The position numbers were made by a program, and so were the translations under genes. Shown piece by piece: positions 1-35,690 of a stretch of 40,640 nt of DNA. How positions within the stretch are numbered: position 1 is the first letter of the stretch; each line of letters begins with the position of its first letter. Source of the DNA: Chloroflexota bacterium (GTDB taxonomy: Bacteria; Chloroflexota; Dehalococcoidia; JACVQG01); assembly GCA_016210545.1 (NCBI GenBank), contig JACQTY010000027.1, positions 1 through 40,640 on the forward strand, written 5' to 3'. The notes under the pieces were generated by a model. The model ran no database searches and was not told the DNA's origin. It saw only the letters and a program-made list of their open reading frames with translations.

Positions 1-995
1 CCCTTGGTGTATCCCTTCGCCCTCTGGGCTACCTCCACCCCTGCCGGGATGGAAAAAGCGTGGATCATGCTGCCGATGACAGCCAGGTAAAAGAAATAGC
101 TGGTGTTCAGGATGCGGTCGGCGGTGTGCAAGCCCGGGTCCACCAGGAGATGGTGGATCGACCCGAGGTTGATGAACAGCATGTAAAGCAAGAAAGCCAT
201 TCGGGAAAGCTTCTCATTGACAGGCTTGGCCCCCACTGTGAGAGTGCTCAAGGCGTACCAGATCGAGACCATGGCAGCCAGGTTCACCTGTTGAGCCGAA
301 TGGCCAAAGGACCAAAAGAACACCCGGTAGGCCCCGGGATCGTAGGTCGGAAAGATTCCCAGGGACCAAAACAAAGCAGGTACGAAAGTGATAACTCCGC
401 CCACCAGGGTAAACACGGCGATCACAGCGGCAGCCATCAGGCCATACGTAAACAAGGGTAACGAACCTTCATATCGCCGCTCGACCTTGGCCACCACCAG
501 GCTGGCAAAGAATATGCCCACCGCTACGAAGGCCCCTGCGGCAAAGAACACGACCCCCAAATAGTACAGGGGGTGAGCCTTCAACGGGACGTAAGCCGTG
601 AACATCACTGTGGCGCGCCCGGTGAGCACCATAACGTCGGCCATGATGGCGCCGATTAGCATGAGGGCGAACGCCAGCCAGCCCAGCGCTGGCTTGGGCA
701 AACGGGAATTGAGGACTACGGCTCCCCCGAAATAAAGCCCGGCTACCTCGAAGAACACGATCCAGAAGACCAACATGGTCATGCCGTGCGCGCTAGTCAG
801 CCGGTAATACCAGTCTGCAGGCAGGAGGTGGACAGCCTCCCAGCGGGTGAGCGCTATGAGTAGAGCCATGATACCGCCCAGAGTCAGCATGACCACGGCG
901 GTCACGGCGTTGGCGATGATAAGCTTCTCCGCTCGCAGGTGGACCTTAAGTCCAGTTACCGGACACGTTCGGAAAGCCAGTTGCTGCGTTGCCAT
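1..995 (-). CDS. Heme-copper oxidase superfamily subunit I, NO-reductase-like active site (partial)
   Basis: This gene is not in the ORF track. It is open at the left edge, so only the first 331 residues are visible. It starts at ATG 995, seven bases after the subunit II stop, with AAGGAG inside the end of the upstream gene. The protein has many membrane helices. His70 in a SAHGMTM motif fits a low-spin heme ligand. His232 (FGHSAQQV) and the pair His281-His282 (GSIHHLL) fit the three CuB ligands. In O2-reducing A/B-family enzymes the CuB histidine is followed at +4 by a cross-linked tyrosine (HPEVY); here +4 is Gln236. Members without that tyrosine include nitric oxide reductases, and CuA-linked ones are known (eNOR-like). 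With a NirK-like gene next door I infer a quinol- or cytochrome-fed NO reductase, but a divergent O2 reductase is not excluded. Confidence 0.85.
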   Translation of the reverse strand, partial: MATQQLAFRTCPVTGLKVHLRAEKLIIANAVTAVVMLTLGGIMALLIALTRWEAVHLLPADWYYRLTSAHGMTMLVFWIVFFEVAGLYFGGAVVLNSRLPKPALGWLAFALMLIGAIMADVMVLTGRATVMFTAYVPLKAHPLYYLGVVFFAAGAFVAVGIFFASLVVAKVERRYEGSLPLFTYGLMAAAVIAVFTLVGGVITFVPALFWSLGIFPTYDPGAYRVFFWSFGHSAQQVNLAAMVSIWYALSTLTVGAKPVNEKLSRMAFLLYMLFINLGSIHHLLVDPGLHTADRILNTSYFFYLAVIGSMIHAFSIPAGVEVAQRAKGYTK

Positions 996-1001
996 CCTGG
1001 A

Positions 1002-1544
1002 CTACTCCTTCACGATTATTTTGCCGGTCATCGTGTGATGACCAAGGCCACAGAATTCATTACACACAATATAGAAGTCTCCGGACTCAGCAGGCGTAAG
1101 CGTTATTACGTAATCGTATTCGGGGAGAGCTTGGAAGTTCATGTTCAGCGGCGCTTTCGCTGACTGTAGAGAGAAGCCATGCTGAACGTCAACCGAGGAC
1201 AGGTGGACTCGATATGTCTGGCCTTTCTTGAGTTCCAGAATAGGGTACCACTGGAACGTGCGGCCCATAAGGTAGACGTCACTGCCGCCCGGAGGGCTGA
1301 CGACAGGCAGACCGCCTTCTGTCCTCACCTGATATTTCTGGACAAAGGCGTTGGTAAGCTGAGTGTACTGGGTCGTAGATATCCTGTAGGTCTCGGTCGG
1401 CGTGTCCTGCCTGGCGGCCGCGCCCCAAACGATCATCATGAAGAACATGACCACCGCCCAGAATATGGCTATGCCTAGCCATATCTTTTCCTCTTTGCCC
1501 AGTGGTTTCCACCATATCCGCTCGGGAGAAGCTAGTGTGCTCAT
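1002..1544 (-). CDS. Cytochrome oxidase subunit II-like protein with CuA site
   Basis: This 180-aa protein has one N-terminal helix (about residues 21-41) and then a periplasmic cupredoxin domain. The complete CuA ligand set is visible: His122, Cys161, Glu163, Cys165, His169 and Met172 in CNEFCGLGHHTM. It would accept electrons from a soluble donor and pass them to the hemes of the downstream subunit I. The single helix and short length match ba3/eNOR-type subunit II rather than the long aa3 type. The ATG at 1544 has an AGAGGA Shine-Dalgarno sequence. The stop codon overlaps the ribosome-binding site of subunit I, so the two are translationally coupled. Confidence 0.93.
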   Translation of the reverse strand: MSTLASPERIWWKPLGKEEKIWLGIAIFWAVVMFFMMIVWGAAARQDTPTETYRISTTQYTQLTNAFVQKYQVRTEGGLPVVSPPGGSDVYLMGRTFQWYPILELKKGQTYRVHLSSVDVQHGFSLQSAKAPLNMNFQALPEYDYVITLTPAESGDFYIVCNEFCGLGHHTMTGKIIVKE

Positions 1545-1556
1545 CTCTATCCTCTC

Positions 1557-1727
1557 TTACTTCCACACCGGGACATTGGCCAGGTCAAGCATTGTCCAGA
1601 GGAGATACAGCAACGATGGTACAGCCACTCCCAGGGTCAGCATCAAAAAGACATCGTCCAAGAATATCTGCCCGTAAGGTACTCGCTCCTCGGTTGGGGT
1701 CTTGTCAGACCGTCCTGATTCAGGCAT
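1557..1727 (-). CDS. Small single-helix oxidase-associated subunit (56 aa)
   Basis: This ORF is too short for the supplied track. The ATG at 1727 is preceded by GGGGGA at good spacing and the frame runs 56 codons to TAA. The N-terminal third is hydrophilic and acidic (MPESGRSDKTPTEER), followed by one hydrophobic helix at about residues 26-46 and a short VPVWK tail. It ends 13 bases before the CuA subunit start and is first in the three-gene oxidase operon. Size and topology resemble the one-helix subunit IIa of ba3-type oxidases. The identification rests on position and topology, not on a specific motif. Confidence 0.7.
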   Translation of the reverse strand: MPESGRSDKTPTEERVPYGQIFLDDVFLMLTLGVAVPSLLYLLWTMLDLANVPVWK

Positions 1728-1794
1728 ATTTGGCTCCCCCTTTTAGATTTTTTGTTGCCAACGGCATTATCAGGCTTGGGCGGCATCGAGCACA

Positions 1795-1808
1795 GTGACT
1801 TTTGTCAC
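1795..1808. promoter_or_regulatory. CRP/FNR-type operator candidate GTGAC-N4-GTCAC
   Basis: There is a perfect five-base dyad with a four-base spacer, equivalent to the CRP core GTGA-N6-TCAC. It lies 68 bases upstream of the first oxidase-operon start codon. A Crp/Fnr-family regulator is encoded 2.3 kb away and diverges from this module, so it is the natural candidate ligand. Binding is inferred. Confidence 0.4.
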
Positions 1809-1952
1809 ATGACCGCAACATGGCCCGAGCAAACACGCTACCTGCCGGGACAGCAAGACGGGAGAATGGAGGAAATGGCGTAGACAAGAAGAGGAGATAA
1901 ACTACTATACTACTTAAACCATTTCCTGGCTTTTGTCAATAGGCAAAGGCAA

Positions 1953-2010
1953 CCAAAATCCGCCGCCCGTTCAAGCTCACGAAACGAACAGTTATTTCAC
2001 CTACGTGGTG
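1953..2010 (+). repeat. Half copy of a 103-bp palindromic repeat (other copy 40373-40475)
   Basis: It begins CCAAAATCCGCCGCC and ends in a small hairpin, CACCtacgtGGTG. Aligned without gaps to the reverse complement of the right-hand arm of the copy at 40373-40475, I count 43 identities in 58 positions. The second arm expected after the central hairpin is not recognisable here, so this copy is truncated or decayed. Confidence 0.6.
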
Positions 2011-2101
2011 CTCGACTACGACCGTCTTCCGCTCCCGAAGAGCACCTAAGAGCCGCTCATCAACCCCCTAAATCCCCCAATCATGAGGGACTTTGGAATC
2101 T

Positions 2102-2145
2102 GTCCCGACAAGTCGGGAAGACCCCTGTCCCCGATTTATCGGGGA
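2102..2145. repeat. Pair of short palindromes (TCCCGA / TCCCCGAT type)
   Basis: GTCCCGA-caag-TCGGGA (2102-2118) is followed by TCCCCGAT-tt-ATCGGGGA (2128-2145). The first resembles GTCCCGA-cgaa-TCGGGAC at 24633-24650 and the looser ATCCCGA/GCGGGAT near 19860, so this is a small dispersed palindrome family. No T-run follows, so neither is a clear intrinsic terminator. Confidence 0.55.
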
Positions 2146-2377
2146 ACCTCTTTCCCCTCACCTCGTCCAGGGCCAAAGGGCATCTTGATGGTGGATTACG
2201 GGCGACAATAGAGACCCGCCAATAGTGAAAATGGTCTGTCGTCGTTGCGAGCCAAAGCCTATTTCCCTGGATAGCTCCAGCGCCCTTTCTCACGCCTTTA
2301 GATGGCGGATACGGGACAAATGCTATCGGGCAGCCTCTGCAAGGCCGACTATGAAAGGCCGTCATTTGAGGTTGTAG

Positions 2378-3895
2378 CTATTCATATACCTTGACCCTGG
2401 CCTTCATATAGGGGTGGATGGAACAGAAATATTCGTATTCCCCGGCCTTCGTGAACTTGAAAGTGAATTGACCGGCGTGGTTTAGCAGGGGCGATGCGAA
2501 GGTATGGGCAGCATCGACAGCCACAGCGTTGTGCTTGCCAGTGCGCTCACCGTCCAGGAAATCAAACACCTCCTCATTGACCCATGTCACGTCGGTACCG
2601 ACAGGCACTTCCGCTATTTTGGGCCAGAAGCTGTTGCCCACCATCTGAATCTGCACCTTGTCTCCGCTGCGGTACCGCATCGGCCTGTCCAGGTCAGCGC
2701 TTCCGATTTCAAAGGGAGCTACCACGCGGGCAGGGGAGGCGAGGACCAGCTTAGTAGGCCCATCGCTGCGCACCTCCTTTGCCTGAGGAGCGTTCTTGCT
2801 GGAACTGATGACGCCTATGGCGCCCTTTGCCGCCTGGGTGCCAAAAGCGTGACTCACCAGCAGGAATGGCCCCTCGGCGGGTACCCGCCAGTCGACTACC
2901 CAGGAATCAGTGGGACCGGCGATGGCCGATTGGGTACCGACCATGATGTTACCTGGGTTCCCACCATAGTAGGCGTACTCCCAGATCGCACCCACCGCGT
3001 GGAAGGTAGCAACGAGGTTGGGGCCAACATTCAGGTAGTAGAAGCGGATGTAATCGCCTGGCCGTGTGGTGATGGGTTCGGTTACATAGCGAAAGTTATA
3101 GCCATTGAACATCACATAGAGGGGGCGTCCGTCGAAGAAGTCTCGGCCGTTGGAGTAAACCTCCTGCTGGAGGATGTAAACCCTGGTATCGGGGGTTTTC
3201 CCTAGCTGCTGTTCGAGTTGGTATTTCTTTGTTTTAGGCTCAACTACGAACATGCCAAACATCCCACCCATCGTATGGGTCATGATGCCATGGCCACCGG
3301 GAGCACAGTGGTACATGAAAACACCCGGGAAGTCGGCCCTGAAGGTCAGTGTCGCCGTTTTCCCAGGCGCTATGTTGCCCGTGAAGAGCGACGTCTGTGT
3401 GTTGGCAGCGTGCATCGAAAGGCCGTGGGCCACGGTATCCTCGTTCCGCACGGTTATCGCTACGGTGTCGCCCTCATCCACTGCCAGAAGAGGTCCAGGG
3501 CTTTTGCCGTCGAAGGTAAATGCTTTGAAAGTTACCCCTTCGTCAATCGTCAAGTCCGCTTTCTTGGTTACGAGTTCAAATTTCTTCACCGGTGCTGATG
3601 GCGAGGGTAGCGCCGTCGGGTCGGCAAGGGGTTTAGGCACAGCCCCCGCTATCGCTCTTTCCACTAGAGCCGATATCTCCTGCGCGCTTGGCGCTTTACC
3701 AGGAGATCCGGCGGGCCCTTCAGACCCTCGTTGGCCCGCCGGCCCGGCTGCGCCTGCCGGTCCTGGCGCTCCGCCTGGCCCCGGGGCGCCGGCCTGGCCT
3801 GGCGGCCCCACCGGCCCCTGGGGACCCTGCGGCCCAGCACAGGCAACAAGCAACGGGACAAGCACGACTAGCGACAGCCATTTGAGATGACGCAT
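2378..3895 (-). CDS. NirK-like multicopper lipoprotein with collagen-like linker and C-terminal cupredoxin
   Basis: A 505-aa lipoprotein: the signal ends in LLVAC (Cys19), then about 45 residues of Gly-X-Y collagen-like repeat, two NirK-type cupredoxin domains (about 105-370) and a plastocyanin-like domain (about 405-505). Type 1 Cu ligands are His157, Cys197, His207 and Met212. Type 2 ligands are His162, His196 and His349. The third domain keeps His455, Cys491, His494 and Met497, so it looks like a tethered electron donor. Compared with Achromobacter NirK, catalytic Asp98 corresponds to Ser160 (HGLSMH for HNVDFH) and His255 to Ile304 (HAVGAI for HLIGGH). Both proton-relay residues are therefore missing. 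Nitrite reduction to NO is the family role; another activity is possible. ATG 3895 has AAGGAGG. Confidence 0.85.
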
Positions 3896-3957
3896 CTACT
3901 CCTCCTTATGCATGTTCTGCATACATTTCTATCTTTTCACATCCCGCAGAATCTGTC

Positions 3958-3973
3958 TGTCATTTGCGTGACA
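3958..3973. promoter_or_regulatory. Perfect dyad TGTCA-N6-TGACA between nirK-like gene and Crp/Fnr gene
   Basis: TGTCAtttgcgTGACA lies in the divergent intergenic region, 62 bases from the NirK-like start and 92 from the regulator start. An overlapping GTGAcaaaaaGCAC (3968-3981) matches the CRP core in seven of eight positions. On the minus strand the dyad centre lies about 40 bases upstream of a plausible start site following TAGAAA. That is the usual position for Crp/Fnr activation. The arrangement fits control of both divergent units by the adjacent regulator. Confidence 0.45.
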
Positions 3974-4065
3974 AAAAGCACAAACTATGATAGACTTAGT
4001 TCCGGTCTTCAGAGGATTCGCAACAGTCGAGACAGGTCACTTCCCGCTCAGTCGAAGGAGTGATC

Positions 4066-4776
4066 ATGCAACCCGAACCGAAGCAAGCAGACCATAACGC
4101 CACCGGCCAGCCCACAGCCCTGAGCGCGGTGAAGCTTGTCCCCTGCTTCTGCTGCCTCGCACCTCAACTGCTCGATAGGGCTGTCAGCGCCACGACCGTG
4201 AGGCGCTATCAGAAGGGAGAGGCCCTCTTCCACCGGAACGAACCATGCACCGGGTTGTTTGTTCTGCGAAGGGGAGTGGTCAAACTGTTCCGCCTTTCCC
4301 CTGACGGCCGCGAGACCACCGTCCGCGTAGCCCACCGCGGCGAATGCCTCGACTGCGTCCCCCTCCTGGACGAAGGCCCCAATCCCATAACAGCCCAGGC
4401 CCTGACGGACGCGGAGGCCGATCTGCTACCCAGGGATGGTTTTCGGTGGCTGTTGGACCAGGATCCCCGGTTGGCGCAACACATATCCCGCATGCTCGCT
4501 GTCAGACTGCGCTATTTCCTCACCCGCATAGATGACTTCGGGAGCGACATAGAAAAACGGATGGACAGACTGTTACTCGATCTGGCCAGGCCCGACGAAA
4601 GCAAGACGCCCGTAGTCCCGTTTAGCCAGGAGGAGCTCGCTTGCCTGGTAGGGGTCTCCCGGCAGAGGCTGAACATGCATTTGGGCCAGCTCCAGAAGCG
4701 CGGCATCATCACGAAGAGCCGCTGTGAGATTCGTGTTGCCGATTCTAGCCTTCTGGAGGAGTCTGTGGCAGAATAG
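4066..4776 (+). CDS. Crp/Fnr-family transcriptional regulator
   Basis: A cNMP-binding beta-roll (about residues 35-125), a dimerisation helix, and a C-terminal Crp-type winged helix-turn-helix with recognition region VGVSRQRLNMHLGQL. The track begins at GTG 4060, but GAAGGAG at 4054-4060 would overlap that codon. The ATG at 4066 has correct spacing, giving 236 aa. A short N-terminal cysteine group (CFCCL, residues 27-30 from this start) and a second pair (ECLDC, 94-97) are visible. The spacing does not match the classical FNR cluster, so Fe-S sensing is only a possibility. It diverges from the NirK-like gene and probably regulates the N-oxide module. Three isolates of this general layout are NnrR/DNR, FNR and CRP subfamilies; the sequence alone does not decide among them. 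Confidence 0.9.
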   Translation: MQPEPKQADHNATGQPTALSAVKLVPCFCCLAPQLLDRAVSATTVRRYQKGEALFHRNEPCTGLFVLRRGVVKLFRLSPDGRETTVRVAHRGECLDCVPLLDEGPNPITAQALTDAEADLLPRDGFRWLLDQDPRLAQHISRMLAVRLRYFLTRIDDFGSDIEKRMDRLLLDLARPDESKTPVVPFSQEELACLVGVSRQRLNMHLGQLQKRGIITKSRCEIRVADSSLLEESVAE

Positions 4777-4961
4777 GTCAGCCTACGCAGACCGATAGCC
4801 CGATCCTCGTTCAGGATTTGCCTTCCGTAGCTACCTCGAAAGTACACCCCACCCCCGTCAACGCGCGGGTCCCTTTGCGTCACTCACCGGGGGAGTCGCT
4901 ACATGATCGCCGTGTGACCGACAACCGGCGCCTGCCCGGCGTAATCAGCTTCACCTCCAAC

Positions 4962-4990
4962 TTGATAAACCACATGACCCGTAGTAGAAT
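4962..4990 (+). promoter_or_regulatory. Sigma70-type promoter for pdxS
   Basis: TTGATA (4962-4967), a 17-base spacer and TAGAAT (4985-4990). Each hexamer matches consensus at five and four or five positions respectively, and the start site would fall about 40 bases before pdxS. The rest of the 4777-5035 gap shows nothing else. Confidence 0.6.
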
Positions 4991-5035
4991 ACTTGCGAAG
5001 ATAGCCATAGTCTAGCAAGGCGAAGGGGTGTCAAC

Positions 5036-33449: not shown

Positions 33450-35690
33450 TCAGTGCGGTAAGAGCGTGACGCCGGTAAAAATAGGGATCCCCAGCGGCGT
33501 CGCAACGTATCCCTTAACATACGGCTTTATCAGGTAGTAAGCCTGACCATACCACAAGGGTATGGTAGCAGCGTCGTCGATGAGCTTCTGCTCCGCCTCG
33601 TTGTAGATGGTCATTCGTAACTTGCTGTCTCTCTCGCCCGCCGCCCGGTCCAGCAAAGCGTCAATGGAGGGATTGTCGTAGTCACCTGTGTTCTCCTCAT
33701 TGCCCTTGTGGAACAGTACATCGAGGAAGTTCTGCGGGTCGGGGTAGTCAGCAATCCAACCGCTGTCGTACAGCTCATTCTTTTCTTTCTTCAGGCTGTA
33801 GAAAAAAACGCTCGGCTCCAGTAGCCGGACGCTAACCTCCACCCCCAGGTTCGTTCGCCACTGGTCAGCCACGGCGCCGATCGCCTGCGAGAGGTCGCCG
33901 CCCTCGCCGGCGGCAGTAATAGTTATGGGCGGCAACTGGCTGGCATCTTTGTACCGGGATGCCGCCAGGCTAGCCTTCGCCGCCGCCGGGTCGAAGGCCA
34001 GCGGCTTCAAATTGGGGTTGTAGCCGGGCATCCCCGGCGGAAGTATGCCGTCGGCCCTGGCCACATTGCCTCGCAGCACGCGGCCGACGACCTTGTTCTT
34101 GTCGATAGCCTGGACGAAGGCCCTCCGGACCAGCGGGTCATCGAAAGGCGGCTTGCCGTGATTGAAGCCGAGGTAGAACACACTGAGCTCCGGCACAATC
34201 TTCAGCTCCTTGTTGAGAGGGTTCGACTCGTCCTTGGCCCTATCTATGTTCCCGCCGCCTATCTCCACCACATCGATGTCCCCGCTCTCATACATCATCA
34301 TAGGTATGCCAGCGAACAGGCGAAACACGATGTAGTTCAGGCTGGATGGTTGCCTGTAATAGTCTGTGTTTCTTTCCAGGATGACCAACTCGTCCGGTAG
34401 CCACTGCTTCATCTTGAAAGGACCGGTGCCGTTGGGTTTGCGCCACCACTCCTTGCCTCCGGACTGCACACTATCTCTGTCTACAACATAGGCTACGGGG
34501 TAGAAAAGCTTGGCCACGAAGTAGGTCCTGGGGGCGTCGATAGTGACTTCCAGGGTATAGTCGTCCTTGACTTTGACCCCGCTCAACTCCCTGGCTTTGC
34601 CCTCCAGCATGTCCTTGACCCCGATGATGTCACCCAGGTAGGTAGAAGCCGTTTGCGAACCAGTCTGCGGCTGGGCAGCGCGTTCCCAGGAGTACTTTAT
34701 GTCCGCTGCTTTGACGGCCCTGCCGCTATGGAACTTCACATTCTTTCTGAGGAAGAAGGTGTAGGTACGGCCGTCGGGGCTGACCTCCCATCTTTCGGCT
34801 ATGTCAGGCGCCAGATTCATATCCTTGTCATAGCTCACCAGGCCGCTGAAAACCTGGGTTACGTACCTGTGGGAGCGCGTCTCCCTGGACAACGCCGGGT
34901 CCAGGGTAGTGGGCCCGTCATCCGCCAGGGTGAGGGCCTGACTGCGCGGCACCCCGAACGGCTGCGACTCCTTGAGTTGGAAACTGGCAATTATTGCGTC
35001 TATCGCCGGGCGCTCGCGCTCAAAGGCAACCTGGGTCCCAATCACATCGATCTCATAGATCTCGGCGCCTCGAGCGACAAGCACGATACGCGCCCTGGAA
35101 GGCGCGGCGGGGGTCGTCCAGGTAAATTCCACGAAGTAGGCCGGCGCGCCGGCGATAACGAGTTCCGCTTCCCCGACCTGCGCGAAGTTGGCGACGGACC
35201 CTTTCACGCTATCCACGATTGAGGTTGCCTGCTCCTTAAGAGTGGTGACCGCAGACATGAAATCAACGGAGACCCGCACAAATGGCGACTGTCCGGGTGC
35301 GGTGACTTGCACCGCTGGAGAACGCTGGCCTGTTTCTCTTCTTGTCCAACTAGATGGAAACCGGATGGAGAAACCATACGTTGAGTTCTCGTAGGAGCCA
35401 CCCAGGCTAACCGCTGCCGGAGGAGGGGCTGGCGCCGGGGTCGCAGGCCCCGCCGTTGGCGCCGGGGTGACAATAGGGCCAGGCGTCGGCGACGGACCAG
35501 CCGGAGCGGGAGTAGCCGGGACCGTGGTGGGCGGAGGCGCTGCGGTCGGAACAGGCGTTGGTGCAGGTGAAGGCGTAGGCTCCTTGCGAGAAACACAGCC
35601 CGTAAACAATAGCAAGGCTACCAGAACAATGACCCCCGCTGCATGAATGGCCGGCAATCGCCTCTTTGGGATCGTCTTGGTGGCGTTCAT
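33450..35690 (-). CDS. Peptide/solute-binding lipoprotein with N-terminal PsbP-like domain
   Basis: A 746-aa lipoprotein: signal with lipobox (LLLFTGC, Cys near residue 32), a 60-residue Pro/Thr/Ala linker, a small alpha/beta domain (about 97-240; YGFSIRFPSSWTRRE, ending IIASFQLKES) resembling PsbP/DUF1795-type folds, then a complete SBP_bac_5 domain (about 250-746; LDPALSRETRSHRYVTQVFSGL). The last part is the oligopeptide/nickel ABC-type receptor fold. No permease or ATPase gene is in the window, so the partner is unknown. The extra domain is uncommon. It overlaps the upstream gene by four bases. Confidence 0.88.
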   Translation of the reverse strand: MNATKTIPKRRLPAIHAAGVIVLVALLLFTGCVSRKEPTPSPAPTPVPTAAPPPTTVPATPAPAGPSPTPGPIVTPAPTAGPATPAPAPPPAAVSLGGSYENSTYGFSIRFPSSWTRRETGQRSPAVQVTAPGQSPFVRVSVDFMSAVTTLKEQATSIVDSVKGSVANFAQVGEAELVIAGAPAYFVEFTWTTPAAPSRARIVLVARGAEIYEIDVIGTQVAFERERPAIDAIIASFQLKESQPFGVPRSQALTLADDGPTTLDPALSRETRSHRYVTQVFSGLVSYDKDMNLAPDIAERWEVSPDGRTYTFFLRKNVKFHSGRAVKAADIKYSWERAAQPQTGSQTASTYLGDIIGVKDMLEGKARELSGVKVKDDYTLEVTIDAPRTYFVAKLFYPVAYVVDRDSVQSGGKEWWRKPNGTGPFKMKQWLPDELVILERNTDYYRQPSSLNYIVFRLFAGIPMMMYESGDIDVVEIGGGNIDRAKDESNPLNKELKIVPELSVFYLGFNHGKPPFDDPLVRRAFVQAIDKNKVVGRVLRGNVARADGILPPGMPGYNPNLKPLAFDPAAAKASLAASRYKDASQLPPITITAAGEGGDLSQAIGAVADQWRTNLGVEVSVRLLEPSVFFYSLKKEKNELYDSGWIADYPDPQNFLDVLFHKGNEENTGDYDNPSIDALLDRAAGERDSKLRMTIYNEAEQKLIDDAATIPLWYGQAYYLIKPYVKGYVATPLGIPIFTGVTLLPH

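Follow-up and report, generated by a model that had tools for sequence, protein, structure and literature searches.

Genes of the locus and completion of subunit I

The window, i.e. the whole stretch of 40,640 nucleotides that was analyzed (contig JACQTY010000027.1 of assembly GCA_016210545.1), begins with the genes of a heme-copper oxidase that very probably is a nitric oxide reductase (NOR) of the eNOR family, followed by a gene for a copper nitrite reductase. Features were assigned in the window and on a second contig of the same assembly, C91, as listed below. Codons of the minus-strand gene are numbered on the plus strand.

3..995, minus strand: first 331 of the 509 residues of the predicted eNOR subunit I (open frame, Pfam COX1, alignment, tree)
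150..155, minus strand: codons of the two further CuB ligands, His281 and His282 (alignment)
288..290, minus strand: CAG codon for Gln236, the residue found where O2 reductases have the cross-linked Tyr
300..302, minus strand: codon of His232, first CuB ligand (alignment)
786..788, minus strand: codon of His70, low-spin heme ligand (alignment)
1002..1544, minus strand: predicted subunit II of eNOR, membrane-anchored, with a CuA site (ligands H122, C161, C165, H169 and M172)
1557..1727, minus strand: one-helix subunit of 56 aa, upstream of the CuA gene (open reading frame)
2378..3895, minus strand: three-domain copper nitrite reductase NirK of the Ser-CAT type (HGLSMH), with N-terminal lipobox and collagen-like stalk
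4060..4776, plus strand: regulator of the Crp/Fnr family, divergent from nirK (family match)
L006 13355-13495 (contig C91), minus strand: one-helix ORF of 46 aa, downstream of subunit I (profile of the fused C-terminal helix)
L006 12456-13370 (contig C91), minus strand: heme o synthase, downstream of subunit I (gene content)

The subunit I frame (3-995, minus strand) starts with an ATG at 995 and runs off the contig start. Its remaining part was found on contig C91 (L006 13530-14198, minus strand), which ends in the same 134 bases with which the window begins. Joining of both contigs resulted in a subunit I protein of 509 aa. This join is supported by a colinear orthologue located on a single contig of Dehalococcoidia bacterium B4_bin.11 (L037; 509 aa, 87% identity), of which an identical copy was present in another genome of the same genus. 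Subunit I matched Pfam COX1 with an E-value of 1.7e-63. Read along the minus strand, the gene order is nirK, the 56-aa one-helix subunit, the CuA subunit and subunit I, continued on C91 by the 46-aa ORF and heme o synthase. The neighbors named in the initial annotation, i.e. a CuA subunit, a one-helix subunit, a NirK-like gene and a Crp/Fnr regulator, were all located at 1002-4776.

Two further genes gave unusual matches. The OppA-like solute-binding protein encoded at 33450-35690 of the window (minus strand) is matched only from about residue 260 onward, which leaves a long extra N-terminal part. A 137-aa protein on contig C229 (L005 1152-1565, minus strand) matched only the N-terminal third of COX1, below the cut-off.

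Active-site residues and phylogenetic placement

All six canonical ligands were found in the joined 509-aa protein: His232, His281 and His282 for CuB, His70 and His388 for the low-spin heme, and His386 for the high-spin heme, with His386 and His388 being contributed by the C91 part. The CuB histidines and His70 occupied the positions given in the initial annotation, both in the sequence and in the alignment. The claim that Gln236 stands in place of the catalytic tyrosine, four residues after the first CuB histidine, was borne out as well. Gln235 and Gln236 were identical in all of approximately 100 homologues, which had been drawn from Chloroflexota genomes, GTDB genomes of many phyla, and plasmids, whereas position 236 was Tyr in the A-family and B-family sequences used for comparison; Gln236 is therefore not a chance substitution. 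Y271, H312, E83 and E321 were also invariant among these homologues.

A tyrosine might be supplied by another helix, as in cbb3 enzymes, in which it lies on helix VII, six positions ahead of the His-His pair. This site is occupied by Ile275 here and by Leu in a small number of homologues; a Tyr at position 275 occurred in the alignment only in FixN (Sinorhizobium pSymA). Tyr271, which is invariant in the clade, lies one further turn away, and judged by helix geometry it is unlikely to form a cross-link to a CuB histidine. The Tyr at the cross-link site is present in the two A-family oxidases that this genome encodes.

The complete subunit I, including the part to the left of the window, was aligned and placed in a quick tree together with A-, B- and C-family oxidases and cNOR, the distant sequences of which had very long branches. 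A single branch (SH-aLRT 99) grouped all Gln236 sequences together, adjacent to the B family. In a careful tree, from which these distant sequences were omitted, the Gln236 clade was separated from the B family (ba3) as its sister with 100/100 support, so that subunit I lies outside this O2-reductase clade. The trees did not include sequences of sNOR, gNOR, bNOR, nNOR or the characterized eNOR of Rhodothermus marinus, and these NOR families were set apart by published residue states, of which none was found for nNOR. The eNOR family has reportedly also been treated by Hemp and Gennis in 2008 and by Murali et al. in PNAS in 2024.

eNOR is defined by a Gln at the Tyr site and an adjacent CuA subunit (Schwartz et al. 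2022, PMC8756737). The residues published for this site (Table A4, PMC8756737) are Tyr in O2 reductases, Glu in cNOR and qNOR, Asn in sNOR and CuANOR, Asp in gNOR, and Gln in eNOR. In the present locus, Gln236 occupies the site, the cupredoxin (CuA) subunit II is adjacent (1002-1544, minus strand) with a complete set of ligands, and both trees place the clade beside the B family. The active-site Glu of cNOR and qNOR, with their cytochrome c subunit or fused quinol form, was not found; Gln and a CuA subunit were present instead. The locus is thus assigned with high confidence to the known, little-studied eNOR family, a B-family-derived group of heme-copper nitric oxide reductases, because it carries the published diagnostic Gln and none of the residues published for other families at this site. 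No family-defining difference from eNOR was noticed. eNOR has been counted as one of four biochemically characterized NOR families, with relatives in the B family (2024 paper, PMC11388526). The Gln at the Tyr site, noticed in the initial annotation, is already a known diagnostic of a characterized family. Subunit I is an addition to the known eNOR family from an uncultivated Chloroflexota bacterium and does not represent a new enzyme class.

Assignment to sNOR, gNOR, bNOR/CuANOR or nNOR instead was considered extremely improbable: these families are likewise relatives of the B family with a cupredoxin subunit II, but the residues published for sNOR, gNOR and CuANOR (Asn, Asp and Asn) differ from the Gln that is invariant in the present clade.

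The AlphaFold model of an orthologue (mean pLDDT 86) matched best to ba3 oxidase, and the closest solved structures were ba3 oxidases (TM 0.86, approximately 26% identity); no eNOR was recognized among solved structures. With the ba3 oxidase of Thermus thermophilus (1ehk, 1xme), subunit I shares the fold, the CuA subunit, the heme and CuB ligands and Ser309, a K-channel residue of ba3; Ser309, His312 and Tyr247 are conserved at ba3 K-channel positions and may form the single K-type proton channel expected of eNOR. Differences from this oxidase are Gln236 for Tyr237, His312 for Thr312, and the separate position of the B family in the tree. These structural matches, together with the CuA site and the K-channel-like residues, would also be expected of a B-family (ba3) oxygen reductase that has dispensed with its tyrosine or moved it elsewhere. 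Such an enzyme is nevertheless highly improbable here, given the position outside the B family, the lack of Tyr at both known sites and its retention in the genome's two A-family oxidases. The eNOR-like NOR preferred in the initial annotation over an O2 reductase is favored by the Gln and CuA definition (PMC8756737) and by the clade, as far as sequence comparison indicates.

Nearest relatives of subunit I were found in Dehalococcoidia, in other Chloroflexota MAGs and in one Deltaproteobacteria (Myxococcota) MAG. Within its class, this gene occurs in few genomes (8 of 294). In the eNOR-clade proteins of two Thermus thermophilus plasmids (L120 5983-7665, plus strand, and L121), the low-spin heme ligand corresponding to His388 is replaced by Lys in both plasmids; the high-spin heme His is kept.

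Accessory helices and the neighboring nitrite reductase

The CuA subunit carries the complete ligand motif C161-x3-C165-x3-H169-x2-M172 plus H122 and adjoins subunit I in 99 of 100 homologous loci; the 56-aa one-helix subunit was recognizable in 64 of 100 related loci. Homologues of subunit I fell into two length classes, one of approximately 575 aa with an extra C-terminal helix and one of approximately 505-545 aa. Truncation of subunit I, considered because the 575-aa homologues are one helix longer, was rejected since the helix was found as a separate ORF. A separate ORF of approximately 45 aa just downstream was detected with a profile of the fused helix in 20 short-form loci including the present one (E 7e-16 here), and the last helix of the present locus, encoded by the 46-aa gene, differs in this respect from eNORs with a fused helix. 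Six changes between the split and the fused state are needed on the tree. As a modest extra to the family description, short eNORs appear from these sequence data to carry the last transmembrane helix as a separate gene of approximately 45 aa.

The match of the NirK to TsNirK of Thermus scotoductus (6hbe), an active nitrite reductase for which turnover has been measured (PMC6400189), was full-length (E=1.9e-156). Both share the Ser-CAT sensing loop (HGLSMH here, HGLSIH in TsNirK), the catalytic His and the C-terminal cupredoxin domain. They differ in the core T1 copper, where the NirK of the window has Met instead of the Gln ligand, and in the lipobox and collagen-like stalk added here. The view that this NirK lacks the catalytic Asp and His was rejected: the active TsNirK likewise has Ser in place of Asp, and the NirK of the window retains its catalytic His. 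At the N terminus, a lipobox (LVACAG) is followed by collagen-like Gly-X-Y repeats that span about 47 residues and may form a stalk; this extension was missing from the NirK relatives compared, i.e. those of Thermus and of L040.

eNOR also has a NirK of this type as its neighbor in L040, a Myxococcota MAG (58% identity), and on the Thermus plasmids L120 and L121 (57% identity). Ordinary Asp-CAT NirKs were found near other eNORs, as were NO-related genes (Rrf2, DUF542, hemerythrin). Simple pattern searches of positions 1-5000 of the window revealed no clear Fnr-type box.

Proposed reaction and physiological role

By analogy with its family, the most likely reaction of the enzyme is the reduction of NO to N2O, with electrons delivered through CuA. 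A periplasmic cytochrome c or a cupredoxin would donate electrons to CuA, from where they would pass via the low-spin heme (His70/His388) to the site formed by the high-spin heme (His386) and CuB (His232/281/282), where two NO would be converted to N2O. The Tyr that serves O2 splitting in O2 reductases is absent from this site. Protons may be provided by a K-channel-like path of Ser309, His312, Tyr247 and Gln236. The neighboring Ser-CAT NirK would supply NO, resulting in a sequence from nitrite via NO to N2O that may be respiratory or protective.

The assembly searched was 93.8% complete. Searches of it revealed no further NOR-like heme-copper oxidase; for NosZ, weak cupredoxin cross-hits but no full-length match were obtained, and NarG gave only sub-threshold matches. 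Two A-family oxidases are encoded elsewhere in the genome. On contig C91, a gene similar to cytochrome bd subunit I (L006 1045-2706, minus strand) overlaps one whose product has two CxxCH motifs (L006 261-1166, minus strand), and no cydB was recognized on this contig.

The lack of full-length NosZ and of NarG above the cut-off, and the presence of two A-family oxidases, speak for an eNOR that chiefly detoxifies NO, or has a mixed NO/O2 role when oxygen is low, and does not primarily serve denitrifying respiration. This role would be compatible with the eNOR assignment and is possible, if somewhat unlikely; the adjacent nirK, and the pairing of three-domain nirK with eNOR seen in other phyla, point to a nitrite-to-N2O module instead, and detoxification does not preclude respiration. 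The organism is best read as a partial denitrifier from nitrite to N2O or as the owner of an NO-protective system. A more specific combination, in which the short-form eNOR is a four-subunit variant with its terminal helix as a separate small protein and also works together with the membrane-anchored Ser-CAT NirK, in physical proximity, to convert nitrite to N2O at the outer face of the membrane, is improbable as a whole.

eNOR has been reported in Chloroflexi, Archaea and Proteobacteria and is often misannotated as cytochrome oxidase (PMC8756737). Annotation pipelines apply this label also to proteins of the present clade, e.g., those of T. roseum, Defluviimonas and the Thermus plasmids. Because eNORs are routinely annotated in this way, the N2O-producing potential of Chloroflexota and other phyla is undercounted, and the present locus adds a Dehalococcoidia-like lineage with eNOR beside a Ser-CAT nirK.
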